Positions 7,081-25,177 are shown, numbered from the stretch's first letter. The stretch is 64,000 nt of DNA from Chitinivorax sp. PXF-14 (GCF_040812015.1 NZ_JBFNXJ010000018.1:1-64000), one strand, 5' to 3'. A program made the numbers and translations. The notes: generated by a model from the letters alone, not told the origin.

Positions 7081-7084
<4 letters not shown>

Positions 7085-7965
7085 TGCGACACCTCCTGTT
7101 GTTGGGCCTGGCCGGCGTTCTGGATCAGGTTGTAGAACACGAAGCACAAGAGCAGGATGATCAGGAAGTACACCAGCGAGAAGGCAGCCGCCGGGCCCAG
7201 GTCGAACTGGCCGACCGCCTTCTGCGCCAGGTACTGCGACAGGAAGGTGGTGGCGTTGCCAGGCCCGCCGCCGGTCAGCACGAAGGGCTCGGTGTAGATC
7301 ATGAAGCTATCCATGAAGCGCAGCAGCAGGCCGATCAGCAGCACGCCACGCATCTTGGGCAGCTGGATGAAGCGGAACACCGCGAGCCGCGAGGCGCCGT
7401 CGATCTTGGCGGCCTGGTAATAGGCCTCGGGGATGGCGCGCAGGCCGGCATAGCAGAGCAGCGCGACGAGCGGCGTCCAGTGCCAGACATCCATGATCAG
7501 CACGGTCAACCAGGCATCGGACGAATGGCCGGTGTAGTTGTAGTCGATGCCGAGCCGGGTCAGCAGCACACCGGCCAGGCCGATGTCGGTACGCCCGAAA
7601 ATCTGCCAGATCGTGCCGACCACGTTCCATGGGATCAACAGTGGCATCGCCAGCAGCACGAGGCTCAGCGACGCGCGCCAGCCGGCGGCCGGCAGGGCCA
7701 GCGCGAGCAGGATGCCGAGCGGGATCTCGAGCAGCAGCACCGCGCCCGAGAACACGATCTGCCGGTACAGCGCGCCATGCAGCTCGGGATCGCGCATCAC
7801 CGCCTTGAACCATTCGGTGCCGACGAACACCTTCTGTTCCGGGCTCAGGATGTCCTGCACCGAATAGTTGACCACCGTCATCAGCGGAATCACCGCCGAA
7901 AATGCCACGCACAGGATCACCGGCAGGATCAGGAACCAGGCCTTGTTGTTGAGTGTCTTGTTCAT
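7081..7965 (-). CDS. glpP: Glycerol ABC transporter permease (first subunit)
   Basis: The 294-residue MalF-like inner-membrane protein has six predicted helices. Its EAA-type coupling loop, RAIPEAYYQAAKIDGASRLA, lies near residues 195-215. It begins 12 bp after the glpT stop and overlaps glpQ by four bases. With GlpQ it forms the membrane pore, energised by GlpS and GlpT. The family and role follow from sequence and the conserved gene order. Confidence 0.93.
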
Positions 7966-7977
7966 TCGATCTCTCCC

Positions 7978-9029
<1,052 letters not shown>

Positions 9030-9048
<19 letters not shown>

Positions 9049-10178
9049 GCGGCCTCCTGGGCGGATGCGGTTGCCGCGAGCGCAGCCGGACGCTGGCGCT
9101 CGGGGGAACACAAGAGCTGGCCCGAAGGTTCGAATGCGAACACCTCGGCCGGATCAATGAACAGCGGCACGCGCGAGCCGGGCTCCAGCAGCTGCACGCC
9201 GGACAGCTGGGCAACCAGGGTGAAGTCGCCATGGTGGGCGTGCAGATAGGTATCCGAGCCGCTGATTTCGGCCAGGTCCACCTCGCAGTGCACCACACAG
9301 TCGCGTGGTGAATTGGGCCGCAGCCTGACGTGGCAGGGGCGCACGCCGAGCGTCAGCGGGCCAGGCCTGAGCGATGCCAGATGCGCGTCGAGCGGGATGC
9401 GCACATCCTCGCCGAACCAGGCCTCACGGGTCGCGACATCGACGCCGGCGGCCAGCAGGTTCATCGGCGGATCGCTGAACACCTGCGCCACCCGCACCGA
9501 GGCGGGCTTGTGGAACACGTCGAGTGTCGGGCCGAACTGCAGCAGCCTGCCCTCGTCCATCACCACCGTGTGGCCACCCAGCAGCAGCGCCTCCTGCGGC
9601 TCGGTGGTGGCGTAGACCACGGTGGTCTCGCTGCTGGCGAACAGGTCCTTGAGGTCGGCACGCAGCTCTTCACGCAGCTTGTAGTCGAGGTTGACCAGGG
9701 GTTCGTCCAGCAGTAGCAGCGGAGCGCGCTTCACCAGTGCCCGCGCCATCGCCGTACGCTGTTGCTGGCCGCCGGACAGGGCGCCCGGCAGGCGATCGAG
9801 CAGGTGGGCGATGTGCAGCCTCTCGGCCACCGCCGTGACACGCGCCTTGATCTCGCCGTCGCCGAGCTTGCCCTGCAGCCGCAGCGGCGAGGCGATATTC
9901 TCGAACACGCTGAACGATGGATAGTTGACGAACTGCTGGTACACCATCGCCAGGTTGCGCTTGCGCACCGACCAACCGGTCACGTCCACGCCGCTATCCA
10001 GCACGCGCCCGCTGCTGACCGCCTCCAGCCCCGCCATCAGCCGCATCAGCGTGGTCTTGCCGGCACGGGTGGGGCCGAGCAGCACATTGATTTGTCCCGG
10101 CGCCAGATCGAGATTGAGCGGATAGATGTGGGTTTCCACCCCCACCCGCTTGCTGACGCCACTCAGTTTCAACTGCAT
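9030..10178 (-). CDS. glpS: Glycerol ABC transporter ATP-binding protein GlpS-type (missing switch histidine)
   Basis: The 382-residue MalK-like ATPase has Walker A GPTRAGKT (35-42), a perfect signature LSGGQQQR (134-141), Walker B LLLLDEP (154-160) and a TOBE-like C-terminal half. At the H-loop, where importers have VTHDQ, the sequence is YATTEPQEA, so Thr192 replaces the switch histidine. This complements GlpT, which has the histidine but a broken signature. The gene follows glpD2 after an 18-bp gap containing AAGGAG and runs into glpT. The role in glycerol import is inferred from the operon. Confidence 0.92.
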
Positions 10179-10196
10179 GTGTGTCTCCTTGGCTGT

Positions 10197-11741
10197 TCAG
10201 GCACCCAGGCGGGCCGCCATCAACGCGCCGTTATTCTCTTGCGTCGCACTTGCAAAATAGGCCTTGAGCCAACGCGTCAGGACGGCTTCACCGTCCGCCG
10301 GCACGGCCAGCCCGAGCTTGGAGCGGCGCCACAGGATGTCCTGCGCGCTACGCGCCCATTCCTCTTGAATAAGATAGTCCACTTCGGCCCGATACAGCCC
10401 TGGCAATATCTCCTCGCCGAGATCGTCGAGATGGCGCGCGCCGGCCAGGAAGTGCGCCATGCGCGTGCCGTAGGAGCGCGCATAACGCTCGGCCAGCCGA
10501 ACCGGCAGCCAGGGGTGCAAGGTCTTGATCAGTTTCAGGAAGGACTGAAAGTCCGCAGCCGGCATATCGCCGCCGGGCAGCGGCGCGGTGGCGGTCCACG
10601 GTGCGGCATCGTTGCCCAGCAGGGGCTGCAGCCGCGCCACAGCCTCTTCGGCCAGCTTGCGGAAGGTGGTGATCTTGCCGCCGAACACCGACAGCAGCGG
10701 CGCGCCGCATTCGTCGAGCTCGAGCGAGTAGTCGCGCGTGACGCTGGCTGCGTTGCTGGCTTCGTCGTCGAGCAGCGGGCGCACGCCGGAGTAGTGCCAC
10801 ACCACGTCGCCCGGTTTCACCTGCTTATGGAAATAGCGGCTCGCCATCTCGCACAGGTAGTCGATTTCGTCCTGCCCCGCACGCACCTGCGCCGGGTCGC
10901 CCTGATATTCGACATCGGTCGTGCCGATCAGCGTGAAATCCTGCTCGTACGGAATCGCGAAGATGATGCGCTTGTCGGGGTTCTGGAAGAGATAGGCATA
11001 GTGGTGGGCGAACAGCCTGGGCACCACGATATGGCTGCCCTTGACCAGCCGGATGCGGTGTTGCGAGCCGATGCCCGCCACCTGGTCAACGAATTCCGCC
11101 ACCCACGGGCCAGCGGCGTTGACCAGCGCCCGCGCGCTGACACGGCGCCGCGTCCCGTTCTCGGCCTGCAGCACGACATGCCATAGCGCGCCGTCGCGTG
11201 TCGCTTCGATGCAGCGGGTACGGGTGACGATCTCGGCGCCATGCTCGCGCGCATCCATCGCGCACAGCACCACCAGCCGCGCATCCTGCACCCAGCCGTC
11301 GGAATAGATAAAGCCCTTGTCGTAACCGGACTTGAGCGGCGCGCCGGCCGGGTGATGGCGCAGATCGACACCGCGCGAGCCGGGCAGGATTTCGCGCCGC
11401 GCCAGATGATCATAAAGGAACAGGCCGGCACGGATCAGCATTGCCGGGCGCATGCTGCGGTCGTGCGGCATGACGAAGCGCAGCGGCCACATGATGTGCG
11501 GCGCCGAGCGCAGCAGCACCTCGCGCTCCTGCAGCGCCTTGCGCACCAGGCCGAACTCGTAATACTCGAGATAGCGCAGGCCACCGTGTATCAGTTTGGT
11601 GCTGGCCGAAGAGGTGTGCCTGGCCAGGTCATCCTGCTCGCACAGCAGCACGGACAAACCCCGCCCGGCCGCATCGCGTGCGATGCCGACACCGTTGATG
11701 CCACCACCCACGACAAGAACGTCGTAAACCTGTTGTTGCAC
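10197..11741 (-). CDS. glpD: Aerobic glycerol-3-phosphate dehydrogenase (second copy, operon head)
   Basis: The 514-residue paralogue of the protein at 1356-2882 shares the FAD motif VVGGGINGVGIARDAAG, STKLIHGGLRYLEYYEFGL, NAAGPWV, IGTTDVEY and FGGKITTFRKLAEEA. It starts with GTG at 11741 behind CTGGAGGAG. It is the first gene of the operon continuing into glpSTPQUV and tpiA. Divergence from the first copy is spread through the protein, so this is an old duplication or separate acquisition, not a recent tandem copy. It oxidises glycerol 3-phosphate to DHAP when the transporter is induced. Confidence 0.95.
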   Translation of the reverse strand: MQQQVYDVLVVGGGINGVGIARDAAGRGLSVLLCEQDDLARHTSSASTKLIHGGLRYLEYYEFGLVRKALQEREVLLRSAPHIMWPLRFVMPHDRSMRPAMLIRAGLFLYDHLARREILPGSRGVDLRHHPAGAPLKSGYDKGFIYSDGWVQDARLVVLCAMDAREHGAEIVTRTRCIEATRDGALWHVVLQAENGTRRRVSARALVNAAGPWVAEFVDQVAGIGSQHRIRLVKGSHIVVPRLFAHHYAYLFQNPDKRIIFAIPYEQDFTLIGTTDVEYQGDPAQVRAGQDEIDYLCEMASRYFHKQVKPGDVVWHYSGVRPLLDDEASNAASVTRDYSLELDECGAPLLSVFGGKITTFRKLAEEAVARLQPLLGNDAAPWTATAPLPGGDMPAADFQSFLKLIKTLHPWLPVRLAERYARSYGTRMAHFLAGARHLDDLGEEILPGLYRAEVDYLIQEEWARSAQDILWRRSKLGLAVPADGEAVLTRWLKAYFASATQENNGALMAARLGA

Positions 11742-11824
11742 GCCCGTCTCCTCCAGTTGTGCATGACAGCTGCGCCGTGGCGAGTCGACATTGCCCGCGT
11801 CGGATCGGCGACTTGATGGAGAGC

Positions 11825-11864
11825 ACTATAGGCGTGAATTTTCGCTTTTTACAATTTTTTTTCG
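11825..11864 (-). promoter_or_regulatory. glpD2 operon promoter with candidate GlpR sites
   Basis: On the minus strand TTGTAA (11854-11849) and TATAGT (11830-11825) are 18 bp apart, a convincing sigma70 promoter. On the plus strand the element TTTTCG occurs at 11839-11844, inside the spacer, and again at 11859-11864, exactly 20 bp away. The same element, with one copy in the spacer, is found at glpD1. Repression by GlpR is inferred. The rest of 11865-12138 holds no convincing gene. Confidence 0.6.
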
Positions 11865-12138
11865 TATTGTTACTTTAACTTGCGCAACGCAACATTTTGG
11901 CAAAAACAGGCCAAGTCGCGCTGAATCAGGGAAAACCGCGGGAATCCACAAGTAAATATAATTTGGATGCTGCAGATGCAACATGGCGGAAAGTAGCGTT
12001 ACTACACCACTTTGGGAGGCAAACAACACGACGAGATTCGGAAAGGAACCGGCATGAATCGCCATTCAGCCGGTGTTCGAGCGCTCGCTCGTCAGACAAT
12101 CGTACTGAAGTTACCGGGCCTGAGCGGCCCGCGGCGAA

Positions 12139-12900
12139 TCATTCTGATGCAACGAACAATTTGGTGCCAGCCGCTTCCATCTGCTGGATCAAGGCGTCAT
12201 CGGGACGCTCGTCGGTGAACAGCGCCGATACCTGCCCGATATGGCCGAGCTTGACCATCGCGTTGCGGCCGAACTTGCCGTGGTCGGCCACCAGATAGAT
12301 CTGGCGCGAATGCTCGATGATCGCCTGGGCAACACGCACCTCGCGGTAGTCGAAGTCGAGCAGCGTGCCGTCGTTGTCGATGCCCGAGATGCCGATCACG
12401 GCGAAATCGACCTTGAACTGGCGGATGAAATCGATCGTCGCCTCGCCGATGATGCCACCGTCGCGCGGCCGCACGACGCCGCCGGCGATGATCACCTCGA
12501 AGTCCTGGCGCCCGCCGAAGATCGAGGCGATGTTGAGGTTGTTGGTGATGATGCGCAGGCCGCGGTGGTCGAGCAGCGCGCGGGCGACCGTCTCCACCGT
12601 GGTGCCAATGTTCATGAACAGGCTCGCGTTGTCGGGAATATGCTGGGCGACCAGCGTGGCGATGCGTTCCTTTTCACCCTGGTTCCACACCTGGCGCGCC
12701 GAGTAATCCTCGTTCTGCACGCTGGATCCGAGCCCCGCCCCGCCGTGGAAGCGCTTCAGCACATTGGATTCGGCCAGCATGTTGATGTCGCGACGGATCG
12801 TCTGAGGCGTGACATCGAGCTCCTTGGCCAAGGCCTCGATCGACATGAACCCCTGCTGTTTGACCAACTGCACGATGCGCTCATGACGCGGCTGTCGCAT
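12139..12900 (-). CDS. glpR: DeoR-family glycerol regulon repressor
   Basis: The 253-residue regulator has an N-terminal DeoR helix-turn-helix (residues 1-57, with MSIEALAKELDVTPQTIRRD). A DeoR sensor domain follows, with FMNIGTTVETVA near 95-106, IITNNLNIA near 118 and VADHGKFGRNAMVKLG near 205-220. GlpR proteins bind glycerol 3-phosphate and leave DNA when it accumulates. The start at 12900 follows AGGAGGAGC. It is divergent from glpK and lies upstream of glpD2 in the same direction with a 397-bp gap containing the glpD2 promoter. Its likely targets are glpD1, the glpD2 operon and glpK. Confidence 0.93.
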   Translation of the reverse strand: MRQPRHERIVQLVKQQGFMSIEALAKELDVTPQTIRRDINMLAESNVLKRFHGGAGLGSSVQNEDYSARQVWNQGEKERIATLVAQHIPDNASLFMNIGTTVETVARALLDHRGLRIITNNLNIASIFGGRQDFEVIIAGGVVRPRDGGIIGEATIDFIRQFKVDFAVIGISGIDNDGTLLDFDYREVRVAQAIIEHSRQIYLVADHGKFGRNAMVKLGHIGQVSALFTDERPDDALIQQMEAAGTKLFVASE

Positions 12901-13091
12901 GCTGCTCCTCCTGATTTATGTATGGGTGCGATGTGTCGTTGCATTAGGATTGTACTGATTGACGTGCACAATACAAATCAGGGCGCGGCCTCGCATGGTT
13001 TCGGAAAGATAAGCCAGCGTGCGGCATGAACAAATACCTGACAACATCCGCGCACAATACGCAAAATATGCCACAATAATGCGCGACTTTT

Positions 13092-13105
13092 TTCGATATA
13101 GAACA
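13092..13105 (+). promoter_or_regulatory. Candidate GlpR operator in the glpK leader
   Basis: TTCGATATAGAACA resembles the core of the known E. coli GlpR operator (TTCGATAACGAACA) at 12 of 14 positions. It sits just before the glpK ribosome-binding site GGAGGAG. Binding here would block transcription or initiation of glpK. Functional use is inferred. Confidence 0.45.
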
Positions 13106-13116
13106 CGGAGGAGACC

Positions 13117-14601
13117 ATGTCGGACCTGCTGTTAGCCATCGACCAAGGCACGACCAGTAGCCGCGCCATCGTATTCGACCGCGCCGGCCAGGCCGTGAGC
13201 CGGGCACAGGAAGAGCTGACCCAGCATTTCCCGAGCGAGGGCTGGGTCGAGCACGACCCCGAGGAGATCTGGGCCGACACGCTCGCCGTGTGCCGCGCGG
13301 CGCTCTCGCAACACGGCGTAACGCCGGCGCGCATCGCCGCCATCGGCATCACCAATCAGCGCGAGACCACGATCGTCTGGGACCGCGCCACCGGCAAGCC
13401 CATCCACCACGCCATCGTATGGCAGGACCGCCGCACCGCCCCCTTCTGCCAGGCGCATCACTCGAAGGAGCGCGAGACCTGGCTTGCCGGCAAGACCGGC
13501 CTGCTGCTCGACCCATATTTCTCGGCCACCAAGATCCGCTGGCTGCTCGACAATGTCGCCGGTGCGCGTGAACGCGCCGAGCGCGGCGAGTTGGCCTTCG
13601 GCACCGTTGACAGCTTCCTGCTGTGGCGTCTGACCGGCGGCCGCGTGCATGCCACCGACGCGACCAATGCCGCGCGCACGCTGCTCTTCAATATCCATAC
13701 CCAGCAATGGGACGAGGAGCTGCTCGACTTCTTCGGCGTGCCCAGATCGCTGCTGCCCGATGTGCGCGACTGCGCGGCCGATTTTGGCCATACCGACGAG
13801 GCGCTGTTCGGCACCCGCATCCCGATCCGCGGCATGGCTGGCGACCAGCAGGCCGCCACGGTCGGCCAGGCCTGCTTCGAGCCGGGCATGATCAAGAGCA
13901 CTTATGGCACAGGCTGCTTCATGGTGCTGAACACCGGCGACAAGGCCGTCGCATCGCAGAACCGGCTGTTGACCACGGTGGCCTACCGCCTCAACGGCAA
14001 GCCCACCTATGCGCTCGAAGGCAGCATCTTCATCGCCGGCGCCGCCGTGCAGTGGCTGCGCGACGCGCTGAAACTGGTCAAGCACGCGGGGGAGACCGAG
14101 GAACTGGCGCGGCAGGTGCAGACCACCGGCGGCGTCTACCTCGTGCCGGCCTTCACCGGCCTCGGCGCGCCCTACTGGGACCCGCTCGCGCGCGGCGCCA
14201 TCGTCGGCCTGACGCGCGATTCGGGCATCGCCCACATCGTGCGTGCTGCGCTCGAATCTGTGTGCTACCAGACGCGCGACCTGCTCGAGGCGATGCACGC
14301 CGACGGCGTGTCGCCGACGTCGCTGCGTGTCGATGGCGGCATGGTCGTCAACGAGCTGGTCATGCAGTTTCTTGCCGACATCCTCGCGGTGCCGGTGGAG
14401 CGCCCCAAGGTCACCGAGACCACGGCGCTCGGCGCGGCCTACCTGGCCGGGCTTGGCATTGGCATGTACCAGTCGCTCGACGAGTTGACGCACATGTGGC
14501 AGCTCGACCGTGCCTTCGCGCCGGAAGCCGAGGAGTCGCGCCGCGAAGCGCTGTACCGCGGCTGGCTCGACGCGGTGTCTCGCACCCGCAGCCGCAGCTG
14601 A
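13117..14601 (+). CDS. glpK: Glycerol kinase
   Basis: The 494-residue FGGY-family kinase phosphorylates glycerol with ATP to give sn-glycerol 3-phosphate, which traps it in the cell and is the GlpR inducer. Motifs are [13 protein letters not shown] (10-22), NQRETT and WQDRRT for substrate binding, GMAGDQQAA with the catalytic Asp, STYGTGCF, and the FGGY-C signatures GLGAPYWDP and LRVDGGMV. Length and ends match the family. GGAGGAG lies 4 bp before the ATG. It is transcribed away from glpR. A short GC hairpin (14620-14637) follows before the convergent ArsR gene. Confidence 0.97.
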
Positions 14602-14619
14602 GCCGCCGACTCACGCTGG

Positions 14620-14637
14620 CCGCGCCTGCTGGCGCGG
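14620..14637 (+). terminator. Hairpin after glpK
   Basis: CCGCGCC and GGCGCGG form a 7-bp stem with a TGCT loop, 19 bp past the glpK stop, between two convergent genes. There is no T-run, so it may act with Rho or only weakly. Confidence 0.35.
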
Positions 14638-14650
14638 CTGACCGGGCGAC

Positions 14651-15088
14651 TCAGCGCGAGGTGGCCCGCCCAGGCTCACCCGGGGCCACCACCGACAGCG
14701 CCGGCACGCCGGGCTCGACCATCGACAAACGCTCCGGCCGGCGCAGCACGCGGCTCTCCGGGCGATCGGCCATCGCGCTCAGGCGGATCATGTCGCTGTT
14801 GAGGCGCGTGGACAGCTCACTGCTCTGCACCATGACCTGCAGCAGATGGAAGGCCCAGGCCGGCAGCTGTGGCTGCAACCGGTAATATTTCCACACGCGA
14901 TCGCGCCGGACCTGGGTGATGCGCGCATCGCGCAGCTTGGCCAGGTGGCGGGAGGTCTTGGGCTGGCTGCAGTCAATGGCGTGGGCGATCTCGGCGACCG
15001 ACAGCTCCTCTTCCGCCAGCAATAGGGCAAGAATGCGACGGCGGGTGGCATCGGCCAATACATCGAAAAAATCGTTGGAACTGAGCAT
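14651..15088 (-). CDS. ArsR-family winged-helix regulator without metal-binding cysteines
   Basis: The 145-residue product has an ArsR/SmtB winged helix in residues 1-85, with FFDVLADATRRRILALLL, AHAIDCSQPKTSRHLAKLR and the wing VWKYYRL. The metal-sensing ELCVCDL motif of ArsR proper is absent; the only Cys is in IDCSQP on the recognition helix. About 50 extra residues at the C-terminus (RPESRVLRRPERLS onward) are Arg/Pro-rich and not typical. It therefore probably senses something other than arsenite, perhaps through Cys oxidation or a protein partner. It is divergent from the large regulator at 15272, with a palindrome at 15201-15231 between them. It may control itself and those genes (inference). 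Confidence 0.85.
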   Translation of the reverse strand: MLSSNDFFDVLADATRRRILALLLAEEELSVAEIAHAIDCSQPKTSRHLAKLRDARITQVRRDRVWKYYRLQPQLPAWAFHLLQVMVQSSELSTRLNSDMIRLSAMADRPESRVLRRPERLSMVEPGVPALSVVAPGEPGRATSR

Positions 15089-15200
15089 GGTGGACTCCTT
15101 GCGTCATGGAAGGGGTGTTTGTCCGGCCACTTTGCCCGCCCAGGACTAACGAATCACTTACGGATTCGCAAATTCGTCAGCTGCCGGCACCCTTTTCTAC

Positions 15201-15231
15201 ATATGAATGCACTCTTTTCGTGCATTCGCAT
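15201..15231. promoter_or_regulatory. Large palindrome between the ArsR and BTAD regulator genes
   Basis: GAATGCAC (15205-15212) and GTGCATTC (15220-15227) form a perfect inverted repeat with a 7-bp centre. The match extends imperfectly to 12-7-12 bp. It lies in the 180-bp divergent intergenic region and is a natural operator for the ArsR protein or the BTAD regulators. A second weaker symmetry, ACGAAT and ATTCGT (15150-15177), is nearby. Confidence 0.5.
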
Positions 15232-15271
15232 GCAGACGTATCAATTTTGCAGCGGCAGCCATCTCAGTACG

Positions 15272-18200
15272 ATGTCATTCGATCAGCCTATGCAACATAA
15301 TGTGCCACAAGCTCTAAAATGGAGCAGACACAACCATCCGGCTCTCAGCGTGTCCCCTGCAGAACATCATTCCTCATCCGAAACGGCGTTACCCAAGTTC
15401 CGCCCGCCCCGGCTCTACAACCCGCTGGACCGCCAGCGGCTGTACGCGCACCTCGATGCCACGGCCACGGCACCGGTAACCTGGATCTCGGGCCCGGGCG
15501 GCAGCGGCAAGACCACGCTGGCAGCCACCTATTTCACGGCGCGCGGGCTGACGGCCTGCTGGTACCGGCTCGACTGCACCGATCTCGACCCGGCCAGCTT
15601 CCTCACCCTGCTGAGGCAGGCGTTCACCAGCTGGTTCCCCGCCGACGAGCGAAGCCTGCCGCTGTTCTCGGCGGAACAGCTGATGCACCCCGAGCGCTAT
15701 CTATCCGCCCTGTGCCAGGCCGCGCTGCCGCTGCTGCCGGCCCGCGCCAGCCTGGTGTTTGACGATTTTCACGAAGCGGAGACCGGCAGCCTGGCCGACC
15801 GCCTGCTGCGCGACGCCCCGTGCTGGCTGCCGCCGGGCTGCCGCATCATCGTGCTGAGCCGCGACGTGCCGCCGGCCAGCCTGCATGCCGCGCTCGGCGA
15901 CGGCCTGGCGCAGATCACCTACCCGGCGCTGCGCCTCACCAGCGAAGAGAGCGATACGCTCGCCACCAGTTACGGCATAGCCGACCAGGCCAGCGCCCAC
16001 CAGCTGCTGACGCATACCGACGGCTGGCTGGCCGGCTTCGTGCTGCTGGCCCATACCCCCGCGCCGCGGCTGGCGGCGGACGAAGCGCTGCAGCCGAGCC
16101 AGGCGGTGTTCGACTACTTCGCAGACCAGTTGCTCGATCGCCTGCCGCAGGCGCTCAGGGCCCAGCTGCAGGCGCTGTCGCTGGCCGAGTACATCACGCC
16201 GGCACTGCTCAGCCGGCTCACCGACGCGTCGGACCTGCCGCTGCAGCTCGACGCCTGGGCAAAGCGCGACCACTTTGTCAGCCAGCTCGGCAACGGCTAC
16301 CTGTTGCACCCACTGCTGCGCCAGTCCTTGCAGCAGGAATTCAGCCAATGGCCAGCCGACGCCCGCCAGGCACAAACCCGGCGCATGGGCGCGCTGCTGG
16401 CCGAGACCGGCCAGCCGGAACTCGCCTTGCAGCTGCTGCTGGCCGGCGAGGCCCACACCCAGGCCGCCGCCATGCTGCACAGGCTGGCGCCGACGCTGTT
16501 CGAACAGGGGCGCTGGCCGCTGCTGGCGCAATACATCGGGCAGCTCCCGCCCGAGCGGGTGGCAAGCCACCCCTGGCTCGCCTACTGGCGCGCGATCACC
16601 GGCTATATGTTCGGCCCCGGCTTTGCGCGCGAAGCCATGCGGCCGGTCGTCGCCGAGTTCGCCGCAGGCGCGGACTGCATCGGCGAGACCGCGGCTCAGG
16701 CCGAGGTGGTGGCGAGCTATGTCTACGAATGGGAAAACAGCGTCGACAGCGAAGCCGACAGCGAGCGCCTGCTGGCGCTGCTTCACGAGCACTGGGCGCA
16801 TCTGCCGGTCGAGGTGGCGGCGCGCGCCAGCGCCTGCGCCATCGACCTGCTGTTCAACCGCGACCTCAACCACCCGGCGCTGCCGTTGCTGGTAGCGCGC
16901 TGTCAGCCGCTGCTGGCATCGACACTGGCCCCGCGCCTGCGGGTACAGCTCGGCTGCGCGCTGGCCTACTACTGGGGCTGGCAGGGCCTGGCCGCGCCGT
17001 ATCGCGAGGTATGCGACAGTGTGCGCGACATCGTCGCCACGACCGCGCTGCCGCCGTTCGAGAGCATCTGGTGGCAGATGGTACAGCTGTTCCACGCGCG
17101 CCTTACCCCCGGTTTCGACGGCCGCCAGGCCCACGAAGAGGCCCGCGCACTGATCGCGCGGCATGGCCTGGGCTTCCTGTCGCTGCCGCTCGCCACGGCG
17201 GCGCTGCACCTGTACACCCTGCCGCGCTGGCAAGCCGGCCTGCCCAGCCTGCTCGACGAGCTGGCCAGTCACTGCGACTCGTCCCGCCTGCTCGACATGC
17301 TGATACTCGACTGCATGCGCGGCTGGCATGCCCTCACACTCGACAAGGTCGAGCTGGCGGCAGGCCGGCTCGCGCAGGCCGAGGCCCGCCAGGCCGGCTG
17401 CCGCATCGCCATCAGCAACTGGCTCGCCAGCGAGCTCACGCTGCAGCTGGCGGCAGCCACCGGCGACCGCGCCCATGCCCGGCGCATCGTTGCCGCTGCG
17501 GCGGCACGCCCAGGCCATCGGGCCAACCCGTGGCTGGCCATGGCCGAAGACTGGCTGCTGGCATTGACCGACTGGCAGGCCGGCGACCACGCCGCGGCGC
17601 TGGCACGCCTGCGGCCGGCGATGGCCGTCGCGGCGCGCGAGAACTACCCACCGCCGCCACTCAGCCAACCCCGCCAGTTGGCACGCCTGTGCGCGATCTG
17701 CCTGGAACACGACATCGAGCCCGACTATGTGCGCCGGCTGATTCACGACGCGGCGATCGCCCCGCCCGACCCCGATACCGCAGCCTGGCCCTGGCCGGTG
17801 AAGATCGTCACGCTCGGCCGCTTCGCGCTGCAACTCGAAGGCAAACCGCCACGCCGCGGCAAGCCCGCCGCCAAGTCGCTCGAACTGCTGCAGGCCCTGC
17901 TGGCGACCGGCGGCCGGGGTGTGCACGTGCAGCATCTGGTGGACCACCTGTGGCCAGAGGCGGAGGGCGATGCCGGGGTCAAGGCCTTCCACACCACGCT
18001 GCACCGCCTGCGCAACCTGCTGCAGGACGAAACGGCGCTACAGCTCGAAGACAACAAGCTCACGCTGAACCGCGAGCGCTGCTGGGTCGATGCCTGGGCC
18101 TTCGAACGCAGCACCGACCGGCTGTTGGCCCCTGCCGGCGCCGTGCCGGCCGCGATGGTACTGCCGGGCTATCCGGGCGACTTCCTGCCGGAGCAGCGCG

Positions 18201-18526
18201 ACAAGCCGTGGAGCGTGGCCTTGCGCGACCGCCTGCGCAGCCGCTACCTACAGGCCGCGATCGGTCTCGGCGAGGCCTGCCTGGCTCAGCAGCGGCCCGA
18301 GCAGGCCGCCATCGCCTTTGCCCGCGCGCTCGACGGCGACAGCCTGTCCGAGCACGCCTACCTGGGACTGATCCGCGCGCAGCTGGCGCAGGGCCAGCGC
18401 GAGGCTGCGCTCGACGCTTACCGGCAGTGCCGCCAGCAGCTCTCGGTGCAATTGGGCATCACCCCGGGCGAGGAGATCCAGGCGCTGTACCAGCAGCTGC
18501 TCGATACCTTACCGCACGCCGAGTGA
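15272..18526 (+). CDS. Large STAND-ATPase transcriptional regulator with C-terminal BTAD (first of tandem pair)
   Basis: The ~1,084-residue protein has an N-terminal P-loop NTPase: Walker A GPGGSGKTT near residue 74, Walker B LVFDDFH near 162 and IIVLSRD after it, as in MalT/STAND activators. A long helical repeat (TPR-like) middle runs to about 830. From about 843 there is an OmpR-like winged helix (VKIVTLGRFALQLEG, KSLELLQALLATGG, LWPEAEGD) and then a bacterial transcriptional activation domain ending near ITPGEEIQALYQQLLD. In AfsR/SARP proteins the BTAD part is N-terminal; here it is last, as the LuxR domain is in MalT. Such proteins act as ligand-gated switches that oligomerise on ATP. 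The start is uncertain: 15272 and 15290 lie closest to the conserved sequence and neither has a strong ribosome-binding site. Inducer and targets are unknown. Confidence 0.85.
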   Translation: MSFDQPMQHNVPQALKWSRHNHPALSVSPAEHHSSSETALPKFRPPRLYNPLDRQRLYAHLDATATAPVTWISGPGGSGKTTLAATYFTARGLTACWYRLDCTDLDPASFLTLLRQAFTSWFPADERSLPLFSAEQLMHPERYLSALCQAALPLLPARASLVFDDFHEAETGSLADRLLRDAPCWLPPGCRIIVLSRDVPPASLHAALGDGLAQITYPALRLTSEESDTLATSYGIADQASAHQLLTHTDGWLAGFVLLAHTPAPRLAADEALQPSQAVFDYFADQLLDRLPQALRAQLQALSLAEYITPALLSRLTDASDLPLQLDAWAKRDHFVSQLGNGYLLHPLLRQSLQQEFSQWPADARQAQTRRMGALLAETGQPELALQLLLAGEAHTQAAAMLHRLAPTLFEQGRWPLLAQYIGQLPPERVASHPWLAYWRAITGYMFGPGFAREAMRPVVAEFAAGADCIGETAAQAEVVASYVYEWENSVDSEADSERLLALLHEHWAHLPVEVAARASACAIDLLFNRDLNHPALPLLVARCQPLLASTLAPRLRVQLGCALAYYWGWQGLAAPYREVCDSVRDIVATTALPPFESIWWQMVQLFHARLTPGFDGRQAHEEARALIARHGLGFLSLPLATAALHLYTLPRWQAGLPSLLDELASHCDSSRLLDMLILDCMRGWHALTLDKVELAAGRLAQAEARQAGCRIAISNWLASELTLQLAAATGDRAHARRIVAAAAARPGHRANPWLAMAEDWLLALTDWQAGDHAAALARLRPAMAVAARENYPPPPLSQPRQLARLCAICLEHDIEPDYVRRLIHDAAIAPPDPDTAAWPWPVKIVTLGRFALQLEGKPPRRGKPAAKSLELLQALLATGGRGVHVQHLVDHLWPEAEGDAGVKAFHTTLHRLRNLLQDETALQLEDNKLTLNRERCWVDAWAFERSTDRLLAPAGAVPAAMVLPGYPGDFLPEQRDKPWSVALRDRLRSRYLQAAIGLGEACLAQQRPEQAAIAFARALDGDSLSEHAYLGLIRAQLAQGQREAALDAYRQCRQQLSVQLGITPGEEIQALYQQLLDTLPHAE

Positions 18527-18682
18527 TGCCGACGGGCAGCGGCGAGCGCCTGCCCGACACCTCGCCATACCGCTGTAATCCGCGCCAGGCTTGAAACTGG
18601 GTGGGCAAACGCGAGCGAGTTTGCATACAATGAAGCAGGCGCCGCCCGGCGCCAGACCTCCCGCCAACCTGGCCTGCCCATC

Positions 18683-21600
18683 GTGGACCATCCCGCAACG
18701 CTCGATACCCCCTTGCCCGCCAAGCTCAGCCCGCCGCATCTGTACCATGCGGTGGAACGCCCGCGCCTGCGCGGCGAGCTCGACCGCTATGCCGGCCGGC
18801 CGCTGACCTGGGTGCAGGGGCCGGAAGGCTGCGGCAAGACCACGCTGGTCGCGAGCTATGCCGAGGGCCGGCCGGCCTTCTGGTTTCGGGTCGACCGCAG
18901 CGACGGCAGCAGCGACGGGCTCGCCGACAATCTGCAGCGCGCGGCGCACCACTGGGTCGGTGCTGCCGCCACGCATCTCGCCGCCTGGCGCACCGCCGCG
19001 CCGGCGGCACGTTTCCGTCTGCTGGCGCGCGCCTTGTTCGCGCTGCTGCCCGCCGGCGCCCTGCTGGTCTTCGACGAAGCGCAGGAGGCCCACGGCGAGC
19101 ACGCGCTCGAACAGCTGTTGCGCGATGGCATCGACGAGCTGCCCGAATCCTGCCGCATCATCGTCATCAGCCGCGATGCGCCACCGCCGATGCTGTCGCG
19201 CCTGCTGGCCAACCAGGGGCTGGGGGTGCTCGCCTACGATCGCCTGATGCTCGTGCAGCAGGAAAGCCAGGCCCTGCTCGCCAGCCGCGGCATCGTCGAC
19301 GCGGCGCTCGCAGCGCGGCTGCACGAGCAATCGGGCGGCTGGCTCGCCGGCCTGATGTTGCTCGTCGAACAGCAGCAACGGCCAGGGCTGCCAGCCGCTG
19401 GGCTGTTCGCACCCATGCTCGATGAGCTCGATGCCGTCGGGCGGGCCGACCTCATGCGGTTGGCCCTGCTGCCCGAGATCGACCCCGCGCTGCTGCCACA
19501 GTGGGGGATGGCCCCCCGGCTCGCCGCGCAGCTGGCCGACTGGGCCCGGCGCCAGCAATTCGTGTCGCGCCTGGCGGGCGACGCGCCGCGCTACCTGCTG
19601 CACCCGATGCTGCGCACCTATCTGTTGCAGCAGGCCAGCGCCGAGACACAAGCCTTTCGCGAGCAGGCCGTGCCCGCCCTGTACGCAACCGGCCACGCCG
19701 AAACCGCCCTCCGTCTGCTTGCCGACGGTGAATGCTGGGATGCGGCCGCACGCCTGCTGTGCGAGCTGGCACCCGGCTGGCACGCCGAGCCGGCACGCCA
19801 TCCGCTGCTGCGTCTGGCGCTGTCGCAGCTCCCCGAGGACGTGCTGCAGCGCTTTCCGTGGCTGCTGCTGTGGCGCGCCTTGTCACTCCCGCCGGCACAG
19901 CACGGCCAGGTCCCCGCCATGCTCGACGCGGCCTTCCAGGCATTTGCCGGGCAGCATGATCGCAACGGCCAACTGGCCTGCATGAGCGAGCGCCTGGCAT
20001 GGCAGCTAGCCGACGCCCGGTTCGATGGCGGATTCGATCAGGGGCTGGCCTGGCTGGTCGCGGCGCTCGATGCCACGGATCAGGCCGAGCCTGCGCTGCA
20101 GGGCCGAGCCCATGCCGTGCTGCTGCATGCCCTGCTGTACCACCAGCCCGGGCACACCTCAGTAGCCGTAGCCGCGCTGGCCGACCGTTGCACGCAGCTG
20201 CTGCGGCGCGATTTGCCGCCACGCATCCGGCTTGGCCTGGCCACCGCCCTTGCCCATTACATCGGCTGGCATGGCGGCCGCGAGCGCTATGCGCCGCTGC
20301 TGCGTACCGTCGCCATGCTACTCGGGCAGCACCCGCTGCCCGCAGGCGAGAAGGCGCTGTGGCTGGCCATGCGCCTGTTCGTCGAGGGTGGCGACAGCGC
20401 TGCGCCGCTCAAGGCCCTGCTGCGCGCGCTGCGCGGCACCCTCCATGAGATACCGTCGGCCGAGCGCTCCGCCTCGCTGTTCGCGCCGGCCTGCCTCGGG
20501 CTGGCCCGCCCGGCCACGCGCGGGTGCTGCCGTGGCGTGCTGCGCGCGATCCAGCGCCATGCGGCGCCGAGGCAGGCGGCAAGCGAGGCACTGGGCGAGC
20601 TCGTGGCAGGCTGGCTCGATAACCGCGTGCCGGCGGCCTCGGCCCTGGCCGGGCAGCTCGCGCTGTGGCATGCCTACCTGCACATGCAGCAACTAGCGGA
20701 GCACGCCCCGCTCGACGCCGTACTCGCGCATCGCGACGCCTGCGAGCGGCGATGGCGCATCGGCGAGCAGGCCGGCCTGGCCTTCTGCTTCGGCCTGGCG
20801 GAATGCTACGCAAGGCAACGCGCCAGCCAGCCCATCGACACCCTGCTGCGCGCACTGCTGGCACAGGGGCTGGCGCTGGGCCTGCCGCCACCGCCGCTGG
20901 CCCGGCCGCAGCAACTGGCAACGCTCTGCGCAATCGCGCTCGAGGCCGGCATCGAGCCCGACTACTGCTGCGACATGATCGCGCGCGGCGGCCTGTGCCC
21001 ACCGGCCGATGCCCCGGAGAGCTGGCCGTGGCCGGTACGCATCTACACCCTCGGCCGCTTCGATCTGGTGCTCGACGGCACGCCGCTGCACAAGCGCGGC
21101 AAGGCGCCGAGCAAGGCGCTCGAACTGCTGAAGACGCTGGTGGCGCTCGGCGGGCAGCAGGTATCGAGCGAACGGCTGACCCAGCTGCTGTGGCCCGACG
21201 CCTCGCCGACACAGGCCCAGGCAGCCTTCGGCATGGCGCTGCACCGGTTGCGCAAACTGATGCCGGTCGACGCCGCGCTACGCCTGGACGACACGCGCCT
21301 GTCGCTGAACCCGGATTACTGCTGGGTGGATGCCGCCCAGCTGGAACGCAGCATCGACCGCCTGCTGGCCGATATCCACGAGTACCCGCCGAGCGCCGAA
21401 TGGCTGGTCGAGCTGGGCCGCTACCGGGCACCGTTCCTGAGCCTCGATGGTGCTTTCCACTGGGCCGCGGAGCGGCGCGACCGCCTGCACGCCAAATTCC
21501 TCAGCATGATCGAAAAGCTGGCCCAGGCCTTCATCGAGCGCCAGGCCTGGCCACACGCGGCCGCCACCTACTGCCTCGGGCTGGCGCGCGACCCCGGCGC

Positions 21601-21778
21601 GGAGCGCTGCTACCGCGGCCTGATGAACTGCCACCTGGCGCAAGGCCAGGCCGCCGACGCACTGACAGTATTCCGCCGCTGCCGTGAACTGCTCGCCACG
21701 CGCGGCCGGCAGCCTTCGGCAGAGACCGAGAGCCTCTACCGCCAGGCGCTGCAGAGCCGGCCCGCGCGCCCCGGCTGA
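18683..21778 (+). CDS. Large STAND-ATPase transcriptional regulator with C-terminal BTAD (second of tandem pair)
   Basis: The 1,031-residue paralogue of the upstream protein has the same layout. Walker A GPEGCGKTT lies near residue 46, LLVFDEAQEAH is the Walker B-like strand, IIVISRDAPP follows, and a helical-repeat middle comes next. The C-terminal DNA-binding segment VRIYTLGRFDLVLDG is near residue 785, followed by a BTAD. Both copies share the linker WPWPV before the winged helix, clear evidence of duplication. The N-terminal extension is shorter. It starts with GTG at 18683, 156 bp after the first gene, with only weak ribosome-binding signals. It converges on the AraC gene with an 11-bp gap. 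Overall divergence suggests the two respond to different signals or form a mixed complex (inference). Confidence 0.85.
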   Translation: MDHPATLDTPLPAKLSPPHLYHAVERPRLRGELDRYAGRPLTWVQGPEGCGKTTLVASYAEGRPAFWFRVDRSDGSSDGLADNLQRAAHHWVGAAATHLAAWRTAAPAARFRLLARALFALLPAGALLVFDEAQEAHGEHALEQLLRDGIDELPESCRIIVISRDAPPPMLSRLLANQGLGVLAYDRLMLVQQESQALLASRGIVDAALAARLHEQSGGWLAGLMLLVEQQQRPGLPAAGLFAPMLDELDAVGRADLMRLALLPEIDPALLPQWGMAPRLAAQLADWARRQQFVSRLAGDAPRYLLHPMLRTYLLQQASAETQAFREQAVPALYATGHAETALRLLADGECWDAAARLLCELAPGWHAEPARHPLLRLALSQLPEDVLQRFPWLLLWRALSLPPAQHGQVPAMLDAAFQAFAGQHDRNGQLACMSERLAWQLADARFDGGFDQGLAWLVAALDATDQAEPALQGRAHAVLLHALLYHQPGHTSVAVAALADRCTQLLRRDLPPRIRLGLATALAHYIGWHGGRERYAPLLRTVAMLLGQHPLPAGEKALWLAMRLFVEGGDSAAPLKALLRALRGTLHEIPSAERSASLFAPACLGLARPATRGCCRGVLRAIQRHAAPRQAASEALGELVAGWLDNRVPAASALAGQLALWHAYLHMQQLAEHAPLDAVLAHRDACERRWRIGEQAGLAFCFGLAECYARQRASQPIDTLLRALLAQGLALGLPPPPLARPQQLATLCAIALEAGIEPDYCCDMIARGGLCPPADAPESWPWPVRIYTLGRFDLVLDGTPLHKRGKAPSKALELLKTLVALGGQQVSSERLTQLLWPDASPTQAQAAFGMALHRLRKLMPVDAALRLDDTRLSLNPDYCWVDAAQLERSIDRLLADIHEYPPSAEWLVELGRYRAPFLSLDGAFHWAAERRDRLHAKFLSMIEKLAQAFIERQAWPHAAATYCLGLARDPGAERCYRGLMNCHLAQGQAADALTVFRRCRELLATRGRQPSAETESLYRQALQSRPARPG

Positions 21779-21789
21779 AGCGACATCGC

Positions 21790-22770
21790 CTACATCGGCT
21801 TGATCGGGATACAAAGCTCGCAGCGCAGCTGGCGTGGCACGGTGCCCGACGCCGCATTCGGCCCGTAGCGTTCGAAGCACGGCCGGGCGTCGCATTGCAG
21901 GCCGCTGGCGGGCAGCCAGTCACGGAACAGCTCGGCCCAGGCATCGGCCATCTGCGCGCCCGATCCCGCGAACGACGCCACCGCATGGCGCCCGCCGGGG
22001 ATCACCATCACCGACGCCTTGCCGCTCGGAACATAGTCGTCGGCGACCTCGACGCATGCATCGTAGCGGCACTTGTCCGGCGGCGTGATGCTCGGGTTGT
22101 CGAGGCCGACGCCATAGTAGGTGCGGTTTTCCAGACCATTCGAAATCATCCACGGGTCGAATTCATTGACCCAGAAATGGCCGATGCCGATGCCGTACGG
22201 GCCGGTGTAGCGCAGATAGGCCACCCGTACCGGCGGCAGGTCGATGATTTTCACGTCCATGATGGTTTCCGTTTGCTGTGGATAGGCGTCGCCATCATCC
22301 GCGAAAGCCGCGCCGCCGGCCTGATCGTGCTTGCTCAGCACCTGATCGGGATTGCGTTCCGGCAGCCGGCGCCGCGTGCCGATCGCCGCGAAATAGCTGG
22401 CGCGCCGAGCTGCCTCGCCAGCACGCCAAGCCGTCGGGGTAGCGCCGAAATGGCTCTTGAAGGCGCGCGCAAAGGCCTCGCCAGAGCCAAAACCCACCGT
22501 CAGCGCGATCGTCGTCACTGCCAGCCGGGGCTGCATCACCAGCTGCAGCGCGCCCCACTCGAGCCGGCGGCGGCGCAGGTAGTCACCGAGCGTCTCGCCC
22601 GTCCAGGCCGCGAACAGCCGGTGGAAATGGTAGGCGGAAAAATGTGCGACCCCGGCCAACGTCGCCAGGTCGAGCGGCTGGTCGAGATGGCGGTCGATAT
22701 GATCGAGTACGGCATTCATCCGCCGCGCGTATTCGATGTCGTGCATGGGTGATCGTCTTTGCATCGTCAA
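21790..22770 (-). CDS. AraC-family regulator with GyrI-like effector domain
   Basis: The 326-residue protein has an N-terminal pair of AraC helix-turn-helices (residues ~15-115), with LATLAGVAHFSAYHFHRLFA and TVGFGSGEAFARAFKSHFGATP. A C-terminal GyrI-like small-molecule-binding domain (residues ~170-325) contains VRVAYLRYTGPYG and a PDKCRYDACVEV strand. This is the Rob/SbmC-type arrangement, often linked to drug or lipophilic ligand response. Start codons at 22770, 22764 and 22746 are all possible; none has a clear Shine-Dalgarno. It is divergent from the leucine dehydrogenase gene. The ligand is unknown. Confidence 0.88.
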   Translation of the reverse strand: MTMQRRSPMHDIEYARRMNAVLDHIDRHLDQPLDLATLAGVAHFSAYHFHRLFAAWTGETLGDYLRRRRLEWGALQLVMQPRLAVTTIALTVGFGSGEAFARAFKSHFGATPTAWRAGEAARRASYFAAIGTRRRLPERNPDQVLSKHDQAGGAAFADDGDAYPQQTETIMDVKIIDLPPVRVAYLRYTGPYGIGIGHFWVNEFDPWMISNGLENRTYYGVGLDNPSITPPDKCRYDACVEVADDYVPSGKASVMVIPGGRHAVASFAGSGAQMADAWAELFRDWLPASGLQCDARPCFERYGPNAASGTVPRQLRCELCIPIKPM

Positions 22771-23141
22771 TGGGCATCCGCGGGTAGCTGGCCGATTGTA
22801 GTGGCGTCCGGCCCGGCCTGACAGCGCCGGGGCGGGCCCGGCAGCGCTGCCGGGCCGGGCATGCCGGTGCTTGGCGGGGTGCGCCCTTCATCGTATGATC
22901 AGCCTGCAGCGCGACACAATCGCGCCTGCAACGAGCGACCGGGGCGCCAGGCCCGGGTCGCCAACACCCAAAAACACGATTTTTGAGGACACCATCGCAT
23001 GACCGCAAGCCCTGCTACCGTTTTCCGGTACTAGCGGCCGGTTTCACCGGCTGCGCGTCTCCCCGTCATTCCCGCAGGCTGTGCCCGGCATGGGCAAGCC
23101 CGTCACGCAGCCGATCGCGATGGCCCCGACAGGAGCCTGAG
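22771..23141. other. Divergent intergenic region with a possible leader ORF
   Basis: This 371-bp stretch lies between the AraC gene and leucine dehydrogenase. It holds a short frame, ATG at 22999 to TAG at 23032-23034 (MTASPATVFRY), with GAGGAC about 10 bp before it. A GCCGG/CCGGC hairpin follows at about 23035-23055. It could be a leader peptide or the relic of a lost gene start. No other gene is supported here. Confidence 0.35.
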
Positions 23142-24173
23142 TTGAACGTCTTTACCCATATCGATTTTGACGGCCACGAACAAGTGGTGTTCGCCCACGA
23201 TGCGAAAACCGGCCTCAAGGCCATCATCGCCGTCCACAATACCGCGCTGGGCCCGGCCATGGGCGGCTGCCGCATGTGGCCCTACGCGAGCGAGGCCGAC
23301 GCGCTGACCGATGTGCTGCGCCTGTCACGCGGCATGACCTACAAGAACGCCATGGCCGGCCTGCCCATCGGCGGCGGCAAGAGCGTGGTGATCGGCAGCA
23401 GCAGGACAGACAAGTCGCCCGAGCTGATGCAGGCGCTGGGCGAGGCAATCGAGCGCCTGGGCGGCCGCTACATCACTGCCGAAGACGTGGGCACCTCGCC
23501 CGCCGACATGCGCGCCGTCAGCACCAGCACCCGCCACGTGCTCGGCACCTCGGCCGAGACCGGCGACCCGTCACCGTTCACCGCGCTCGGCTGCTTCGTC
23601 GGCGCGCGCGCGGCGATCCGCCACGGCCTTGGCCGCGACAGCTTCGACGGCCTGCGCGTGGCGCTGCAGGGGCTAGGCCATGTCGGCTGGCATTATGCCA
23701 AGCACCTGCACGAGGCCGGCGCCAAGCTGGTGGTCACCGACATCGACGAGGCCGCGATGGAACGCGCGCGGCGCGAACTCGGCGCCGAGGTGGTGGCGCC
23801 CGAGGCGATCTACGATGTCGAGGCCGACATCTACGCCCCCTGCGCGCTCGGCGCCACAGTCAACGCGGAGACGCTGACGCGCCTCAAGTGCAAGATCATC
23901 GCCGGCGCGGCCAACAACCAGCTGGCGCGCCCCGAGATCGGCGAGCTGCTGCGCGACAAGGGCATGCTCTACGCACCCGATTTCGTCATCAATGCGGGCG
24001 GCATCATCAAGGTGTGTTACGACTATCTCGGCAAACCGCTGGCCGAGGTCGACAGCCACGTGCGCCGCATCGAAGACACGCTGGACGAGGTCTTCCAGCG
24101 CGCCCGCCGTGATGGCCAGGCGACCAGCGCCGTGGCCGAGCACATCGCCGAAGCCCGCTTCAAGCGGCGTTGA
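23142..24173 (+). CDS. Leucine dehydrogenase (Glu/Leu/Phe/Val dehydrogenase family)
   Basis: The 343-residue NAD-dependent enzyme would deaminate leucine, valine or isoleucine to the 2-oxo acids. Conserved parts are GPAMGGCRMWPY near 40-51, the catalytic lysine region MTYKNAMAGLPIGGGKSVVIG (first 20 residues from about 67), TAEDVGTSPADM, the NAD fold GLGHVGWHYAKHL and AGAANNQL. The start is a TTG at 23142 with AGGAG six bases upstream (23131-23135). It gives the usual family N-terminus (about 15 residues before the conserved HEQVVF segment). Upstream ATGs in frame would add a poorly conserved, Arg-rich tail. Leu versus Phe preference cannot be fixed by eye. A 10-bp hairpin follows at 24180-24203. 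Confidence 0.92.
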   Translation: MNVFTHIDFDGHEQVVFAHDAKTGLKAIIAVHNTALGPAMGGCRMWPYASEADALTDVLRLSRGMTYKNAMAGLPIGGGKSVVIGSSRTDKSPELMQALGEAIERLGGRYITAEDVGTSPADMRAVSTSTRHVLGTSAETGDPSPFTALGCFVGARAAIRHGLGRDSFDGLRVALQGLGHVGWHYAKHLHEAGAKLVVTDIDEAAMERARRELGAEVVAPEAIYDVEADIYAPCALGATVNAETLTRLKCKIIAGAANNQLARPEIGELLRDKGMLYAPDFVINAGGIIKVCYDYLGKPLAEVDSHVRRIEDTLDEVFQRARRDGQATSAVAEHIAEARFKRR

Positions 24174-24319: not shown

Positions 24320-25177
24320 ATGCAATTCGACCCCGGCCTGCTCCTGCTGTCGCTCGCGCCGATCTTCGTGCTCACCGTGGCATGGGAAGCCTGGTACTGG
24401 CACGGCAAGCGCCCAATGTACAGCTGGCGCGACACGCTCTCCAACGCCAGCCTGGCGCTCATGCACCAGGGCGCCGACGCGCTCGTGCTATGGCTGTTCG
24501 TCAAGACCGTCTACACCTGGTGCTACCAGCATGGGCTCAAGGCCATTCCCGATGCGTGGTGGAGTGTGCCGCTGCTGTTCCTGCTACAGGATTTCCTCTA
24601 TTACTGGTTCCACCGCGCCAGCCACCGCATCCGCTGGATGTGGGCATCGCACGTGGTACACCACTCGTCCGAGCGCCTGAATTTCTCGACCGCCTTCCGC
24701 CAGAGCCTCACCTACCCGATCTCGGGCATGTGGGTGTTCTGGATCCCGCTCGCCTGGATCGGTTTCACGCCGGACTGGGTGATCCTGTGCGTCGGCCTGT
24801 CGCTCGCCTACCAGTTCTTCGTGCATACCCAGGCGGTCGGCAAGCTGGGCTGGGTCGAAAAACTCTTCAACACACCCTCGCACCATCGCGTGCATCACGC
24901 CAGAAATCCGCAATACATCGACCGCAACTACGCCGGCATCCTGATCATCTGGGACAAGCTGTTCGGCAGCTTCGTCGAGGAAACCGAGGCGCCCGTCTAC
25001 GGCATCGTGCGCCAGATCGACAGCCACAACCCACTGCGCCTGACCTTCCACGAATGGGGCGACATGCTGCGCGACACCGTGCACGACCGCGATCCGCGCC
25101 ATCTGTGGATGCCGCCGGAATGGCGGGAGAGTCCGACACCGGGCCCGCAAGCCCGTTCCGGCGCGGCCTCTGGCTAG
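24320..25177 (+). CDS. Sterol desaturase / fatty acid hydroxylase family membrane protein
   Basis: The 285-residue protein has four or so membrane helices and the diiron histidine clusters of this superfamily: HRASH (near 99-103), HVVHH (near 112-116) and HHRVHH (near 194-199), with further His at HTQ and HEW. The natural substrates of bacterial members are mostly unknown; lipid or carotenoid hydroxylation is typical. GAGGAG lies 10 bp before the ATG at 24320. It stands alone between a leucine dehydrogenase and the zap genes. No adjacent gene points to a substrate. Confidence 0.88.
   Translation: MQFDPGLLLLSLAPIFVLTVAWEAWYWHGKRPMYSWRDTLSNASLALMHQGADALVLWLFVKTVYTWCYQHGLKAIPDAWWSVPLLFLLQDFLYYWFHRASHRIRWMWASHVVHHSSERLNFSTAFRQSLTYPISGMWVFWIPLAWIGFTPDWVILCVGLSLAYQFFVHTQAVGKLGWVEKLFNTPSHHRVHHARNPQYIDRNYAGILIIWDKLFGSFVEETEAPVYGIVRQIDSHNPLRLTFHEWGDMLRDTVHDRDPRHLWMPPEWRESPTPGPQARSGAASG

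Follow-up and report, generated by a model that had tools for sequence, protein, structure and literature searches.

MalT-like STAND proteins with a C-terminal SARP module next to a cysteine-poor ArsR regulator in Chitinivorax sp. PXF-14

Two large regulators of about 1,000 residues, called here STAND1 and STAND2, lie side by side in the genome of Chitinivorax sp. PXF-14 and face an ArsR-family gene on the opposite strand. Do these three genes work together? A sequence-only reading of the locus proposed that they form a signal-integration switch around an intergenic palindrome, possibly with a heteromeric STAND complex. This question was addressed in a DNA stretch of 64,000 nucleotides (the window) and in related genomes. 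The features of the window on which the analysis is centered are the following:

14651..15088, minus strand: ArsR-family regulator (P0003), 145 aa; it has a single cysteine, and its tail contains Arg and Pro
15187..15219, plus strand: putative direct repeat of the SARP type ahead of STAND1, GCACCCTTTTC-N11-GCACTCTTTTC, 22 bp start-to-start
15201..15231, strand not applicable: imperfect palindrome, 10/12 pairs with a 7-bp centre, at about chance level
15350..18526, plus strand: STAND1, likely GTG start, 1058 aa, with a MalT-like NOD, a helical-repeat sensor and a C-terminal wHTH/BTAD (SARP) part
18683..21778, plus strand: STAND2, 1031 aa, paralogue of STAND1 with an architecture identical in layout
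21790..22770, minus strand: AraC/GyrI-type regulator, convergent with STAND2 (Pfam HTH_18, HTH_AraC and GyrI-like)

Domain architecture and distribution of the STAND proteins

The open frame of STAND1 extends from 15119 to 18526, but its alignment to the relatives starts only at about residue 80-90 of that frame, and for this reason the GTG at 15350 is the most likely start. The frames of STAND1 and STAND2 are intact, as are their motifs. The Walker A motif is GPGGSGKTT in STAND1 and GPEGCGKTT in STAND2, the Walker B motif is LVFDDF and LVFDEA, respectively, and both proteins conserve the IIV(L/I)SR motif and GWLAG. Hence, the disruption of one copy, which the sequence-only reading had named as evidence against itself, is not the case.

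Regarding the domains, Pfam placed BTAD at the C-terminus (E 2.3e-15 in STAND1 and 1.1e-13 in STAND2) and gave a weak AAA_16 match at the N-terminus of both proteins, and the MalT profile of NCBIfam matched their first ~400 residues (E 1.2e-33 and 5e-26, respectively). The same reading had described two paralogous activators, side by side, with N-terminal P-loop and C-terminal OmpR-like/BTAD parts, and this description holds: there are two intact genes, each with a Walker A motif and with BTAD and MalT matches. Moreover, a family profile built from 37 relatives was compared with the PDB, and its matches were, in order, the MalT NOD (8bob, positions 8-415, E 1.6e-70), the MalT sensor (1hz4, positions 593-783) and the AfsR SARP (8jke, positions 823-1068, E 7.4e-23). 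The reversal of the domain order relative to AfsR is thus real. Among the 37 aligned relatives, BTAD is present in 36 and TPR_MalT in 13.

The structure prediction that had been suggested was run for STAND1, and AlphaFold2 gave a model (mean pLDDT 86.9, pTM 0.78) whose middle part is all-helical. Foldseek searches with this model retrieved MalT (8bob) as the top match and the STAND-TPR protein 6mfv as the second; EmbR and AfsR were significant matches too. STAND1 and STAND2 therefore carry an N-terminal NOD with Walker A/B and MalT-type motifs, followed by a helical-repeat (TPR/SUPR) sensor and by an OmpR-type winged helix and BTAD. No Pfam match to a LuxR-type HTH was found at their C-terminus, where the wHTH/BTAD is located instead, nor does either protein have the N-terminal SARP of the AfsR type, the module being C-terminal in both. 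Considering the order of the profile matches and the Foldseek results, STAND1 and STAND2 are MalT-like STAND proteins with a SARP module replacing the LuxR-type HTH.

The comparison with known systems points in the same direction. MalT of E. coli (8bob, 1hz4) is the best match by sequence and fold, sharing the N-terminal NOD with its arm, the helical-repeat sensor and the conserved motifs; however, the output of MalT is a LuxR-type HTH and not a winged helix with BTAD, and STAND1 and STAND2 are not linked to a maltose operon. AfsR, a large SARP from Streptomyces (8jke, 8k60), also combines SARP, NOD and TPR parts (PMC10936776), but its SARP is N-terminal, and the NOD of STAND1 and STAND2 is of the MalT type. 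Likewise, the Streptomyces SARP-LAL regulators of the PimR type join a SARP to a MalT/LAL-like half (PMC5930380), although with the SARP module at the N-terminus. Finally, the wHTH and BTAD fold of EmbR from M. tuberculosis (2fez, 2ff4) aligns to the C-terminus of STAND1 and STAND2, but EmbR lacks a STAND part and carries an FHA domain.

Proteins of this kind are not rare. STAND matches (E <= 1e-20) were found in 41 of the 300 genomes of the order, often several per genome, and 67 further loci appeared in genome contigs from Pseudomonadota, Nitrospirota, Myxococcota, Thermodesulfobacteriota and Deferribacterota. No full-length relative was found in plasmid records. STAND-BTAD proteins are a large and ordinary group, and STAND1 and STAND2 belong to a known kind. 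A third BTAD match in the genome (contig C5) was discarded, as it only reaches the cut-off score and corresponds, by eye, to a TPR protein whose end resembles a methyltransferase; it is a cross-match of TPR-like helices.

Recurrent neighbours were also considered as targets of the STAND-BTAD proteins, and this option was dropped because the clustering of 858 neighbouring frames from 76 loci revealed no dominant partner gene, the largest non-STAND cluster covering 8 of those loci. At five loci (L061, L085, L094, L135 and L157) the STAND-BTAD gene adjoins, by eye, a gene for a small predicted secreted protein or for a periplasmic substrate-binding protein, and these genes are possible targets.

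Duplication and the slot between ArsR and glutamate dehydrogenase

STAND1 and STAND2 share 34-36% identity and group as sisters on long branches in two trees (SH-aLRT 100), the next-nearest relatives having ~35% identity or less. They are products of a duplication, which is old judging from that identity and those branches.

The genes around them belong to a glp-GDH backbone. In G004 and G003, both from a sister genus, glpR, glpK, ArsR (minus strand), the glutamate dehydrogenase gene (GDH) and the following genes keep their order, and the ArsR has 68% identity to that of the window. The gap between ArsR and GDH measures 755 and 892 bp in these genomes and corresponds to the place of STAND1, STAND2 and the AraC gene in the window. 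No recognisable remnant of STAND or AraC genes was found in these gaps, and the sister genomes have no homologue of the AraC gene in that interval. In two other genomes, G001 and G002, a homologue of the frame at 24320 is located directly after glpK. Because the glpK-ArsR-GDH order stands in sister genomes without STAND genes, the ArsR is part of an older glp-GDH backbone, with STAND1, STAND2 and AraC as extra genes between ArsR and GDH. This segment could have been gained here or lost elsewhere, since both options fit the five family genomes.

The loss option implies a STAND pair that was ancestral in the family and disappeared from the sister genera. In fact, the duplication is deep relative to the divergence of the backbone (82-85% identity for GlpK), which speaks for such a pair. 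However, no STAND match (E <= 1e-20) was found in any of the four other family genomes, which cover two genera, the short gaps hold no recognisable remnants, and a gain from an unsampled donor fits the five genomes equally well. An ancestral pair can thus be held only tentatively, as a possible but somewhat unlikely origin.

It could also be argued that STAND1 and STAND2 work jointly, as a heteromeric complex or a dedicated pair, given that they are adjacent, co-oriented sister proteins which keep their motifs in spite of the deep divergence. Furthermore, close STAND pairs exist elsewhere, one divergent with 543 bp between the genes (L142) and one in tandem with 165 bp (L049). Nevertheless, the conservation of the pair as neighbours in relatives, on which the sequence-only reading had made its proposal depend, fails in the family, where 0/4 other genomes carry the pair. 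Outside it, STAND-BTAD relatives are mostly single at their locus, and the genomes G115 and G073 have their own sister copies (divergent neighbours in the former, 9 kb apart in the latter), as expected from independent duplications. Tandem duplication alone leaves adjacency, too. The absence from the four family genomes and the sister copies elsewhere indicate that the pair is no conserved module and that duplication recurs, and joint action of the two proteins seems improbable.

Other elements of this region deserve mention. At lower coordinates than the ArsR gene there is a glycerol cluster (7081-14601) with ABC transporter parts (7081-7965 and 9030-10178), glpD (10197-11741), glpR (12139-12900) and glpK (13117-14601). 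This cluster has a clear DeoR-type regulator in glpR, so it need not be controlled by the STAND genes. On the other side, the GDH gene (start ~23139) is preceded by a leader (22880-23139) which is conserved with the loci L129 and L130 and contains, in order, ATCGTATGAT, GACACAAT, CCCAAAAACAC(A/G)ATTTTTG and GGA..CCATC..ATG. The ATG opens a frame of 11 codons, at 22999-23034 in the window, whose sequence is unconserved across the three genomes; this could possibly be a leader peptide or an attenuator for GDH. No Rfam matches were found at 14000-24000.

The ArsR protein and the intergenic region

The ArsR protein has the winged-helix fold of its family (HTH_5, E 1.7e-11) and scores 79.3 bits against NF033788, whose cut-off is 55. 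It nests beside the ArsRs of Burkholderiales ars operons (47-55% identity), and some of its relatives in the order adjoin, by eye, arsC-like phosphatase and permease genes. Those ars-type relatives present ELCVCEL and a C-terminal cysteine pair. In contrast, the window protein has ELSVAEI, that is, SVA in place of CxC, and a longer tail in place of the C-terminal RCCA, and it is located at glpK-GDH and not in an ars operon. The absence of metal-binding cysteines and the Arg/Pro-rich tail, both pointed out from the sequence, are therefore correct, with a single cysteine in the protein; SVA and the lack of C-terminal cysteines are common to P0003 and two orthologues.

These features are not peculiar to this locus. 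The family has two derived ArsR copies that form one clade (support 100/99), one adjoining proB (glutamate 5-kinase) with ELSVCEL and the other adjoining glpK with ELSVAE(L/I), and in both the C-terminal cysteines are missing and replaced by a longer tail. Since both copies share the tail and the cysteine loss, these are family-level features. The window protein is a derived arsenic-type regulator that lost the CxC site and the C-terminal cysteines, and arsenic sensing is no longer expected of it, judging from the lost site. ArsR/SmtB members with other roles do exist, such as HlyU (PMC1665450). The ELSVCEL paralogue was located at L131, L132, L133 and L134 (G000:C1, G004:C7, G003:C8 and G002:C359, respectively), directly upstream of the proB-like glutamate 5-kinase gene in three family genomes, while in the fourth the contig ends. 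Both cysteine-poor copies thus adjoin genes of glutamate metabolism (proB and GDH).

Could this ArsR form one divergent switch with the two STAND activators by binding a shared palindrome? The divergent layout and the shared 261-bp intergenic region, with an imperfect palindrome inside it, invite this idea. However, the ArsR stays at glpK-GDH in the two sister genomes without STAND genes, and the STAND-BTAD relatives lack such a neighbour: in the search suggested for ArsR partners in other genomes, no ArsR of the window type (phmmer E <= 1e-5) was found near any of them, with 3 kb or more of flanking sequence on each side at 32 of the 74 loci. The STAND genes are independent of the ArsR. As for the palindrome, described beforehand as 12-7-12, the inverted repeat does exist, with a perfect 8-bp core on each side of the 7 bp, but only 10 of its 12 pairs match. 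About 200 palindromes of 10/12 or better (spacers 0-20) occur in the 64 kb, and ~0.8 would be expected in a region of 260 bp, so it is not above chance. Furthermore, it has no second copy in the genome, and the regions upstream of the ArsR orthologues lack it. The palindrome was consequently rejected as an ArsR operator and as a shared one, and a switch uniting the three genes is very unlikely.

The direct repeat at 15187-15219 overlaps this palindrome. A spacing of 11 or 22 bp is reported for SARP sites (PMC10936776), and a 10/11 match at either spacing was reached by 4 of 1000 dinucleotide shuffles, in a test devised after the repeat had been seen. No clear -10 element lies at 8 bp from the repeat, and a regulon search found no second copy across the genome. 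Across the upstream regions of 74 STAND-BTAD relatives there is no enrichment of direct repeats with spacings of 11/22 bp, which leaves a general autoregulation model without support. The repeat may be taken as a weak lead to a SARP site, and the proposal that STAND1 and STAND2 are kept adjacent as a heteromeric two-input activator regulating itself through this 22-bp-spaced repeat is hardly credible.

Proposed working and meaning of the locus

It is quite probable that STAND1 and STAND2 are stand-alone MalT-like activators with a C-terminal SARP output, derived from an old duplication and sharing a variable slot between ArsR and GDH with an AraC gene, with the ArsR separate. As the literature searched (open papers) yielded no characterised protein with precisely these domains in this order, the ADP/ATP switch, the oligomerisation and the mode of activation are carried over from MalT (PMC6468293, PMC4381067) and AfsR. 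In AfsR, the NOD and TPR parts inhibit the SARP part, ATP relieves this inhibition, and the SARP makes contact with the beta flap and with sigma region 4 (PMC10936776). By analogy, the NOD of STAND1 and STAND2 would be closed at rest with ADP, with the arm and the helical-repeat sensor restraining it. The trigger would be a ligand bound at the sensor, perhaps a small metabolite; then ATP would take the place of ADP and the protein would oligomerise. Direct repeats ahead of the -10 element would then be the binding sites of the C-terminal SARP modules, and RNA polymerase would be recruited through those two contacts, as in AfsR.

Neither the STAND architecture nor the loss of the ArsR metal site makes this locus exceptional, and it is largely ordinary. 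Even so, the series CVC (ars-operon relatives), SVC and SVA (family paralogues) is a clean case of metal-site loss, in which the loss in an arsenic sensor followed duplication within one bacterial family. Moreover, MalT-type switches that end in a SARP module occur widely across Pseudomonadota and neighbouring phyla, and a ligand or target for one MalT/SARP member would open the whole group.
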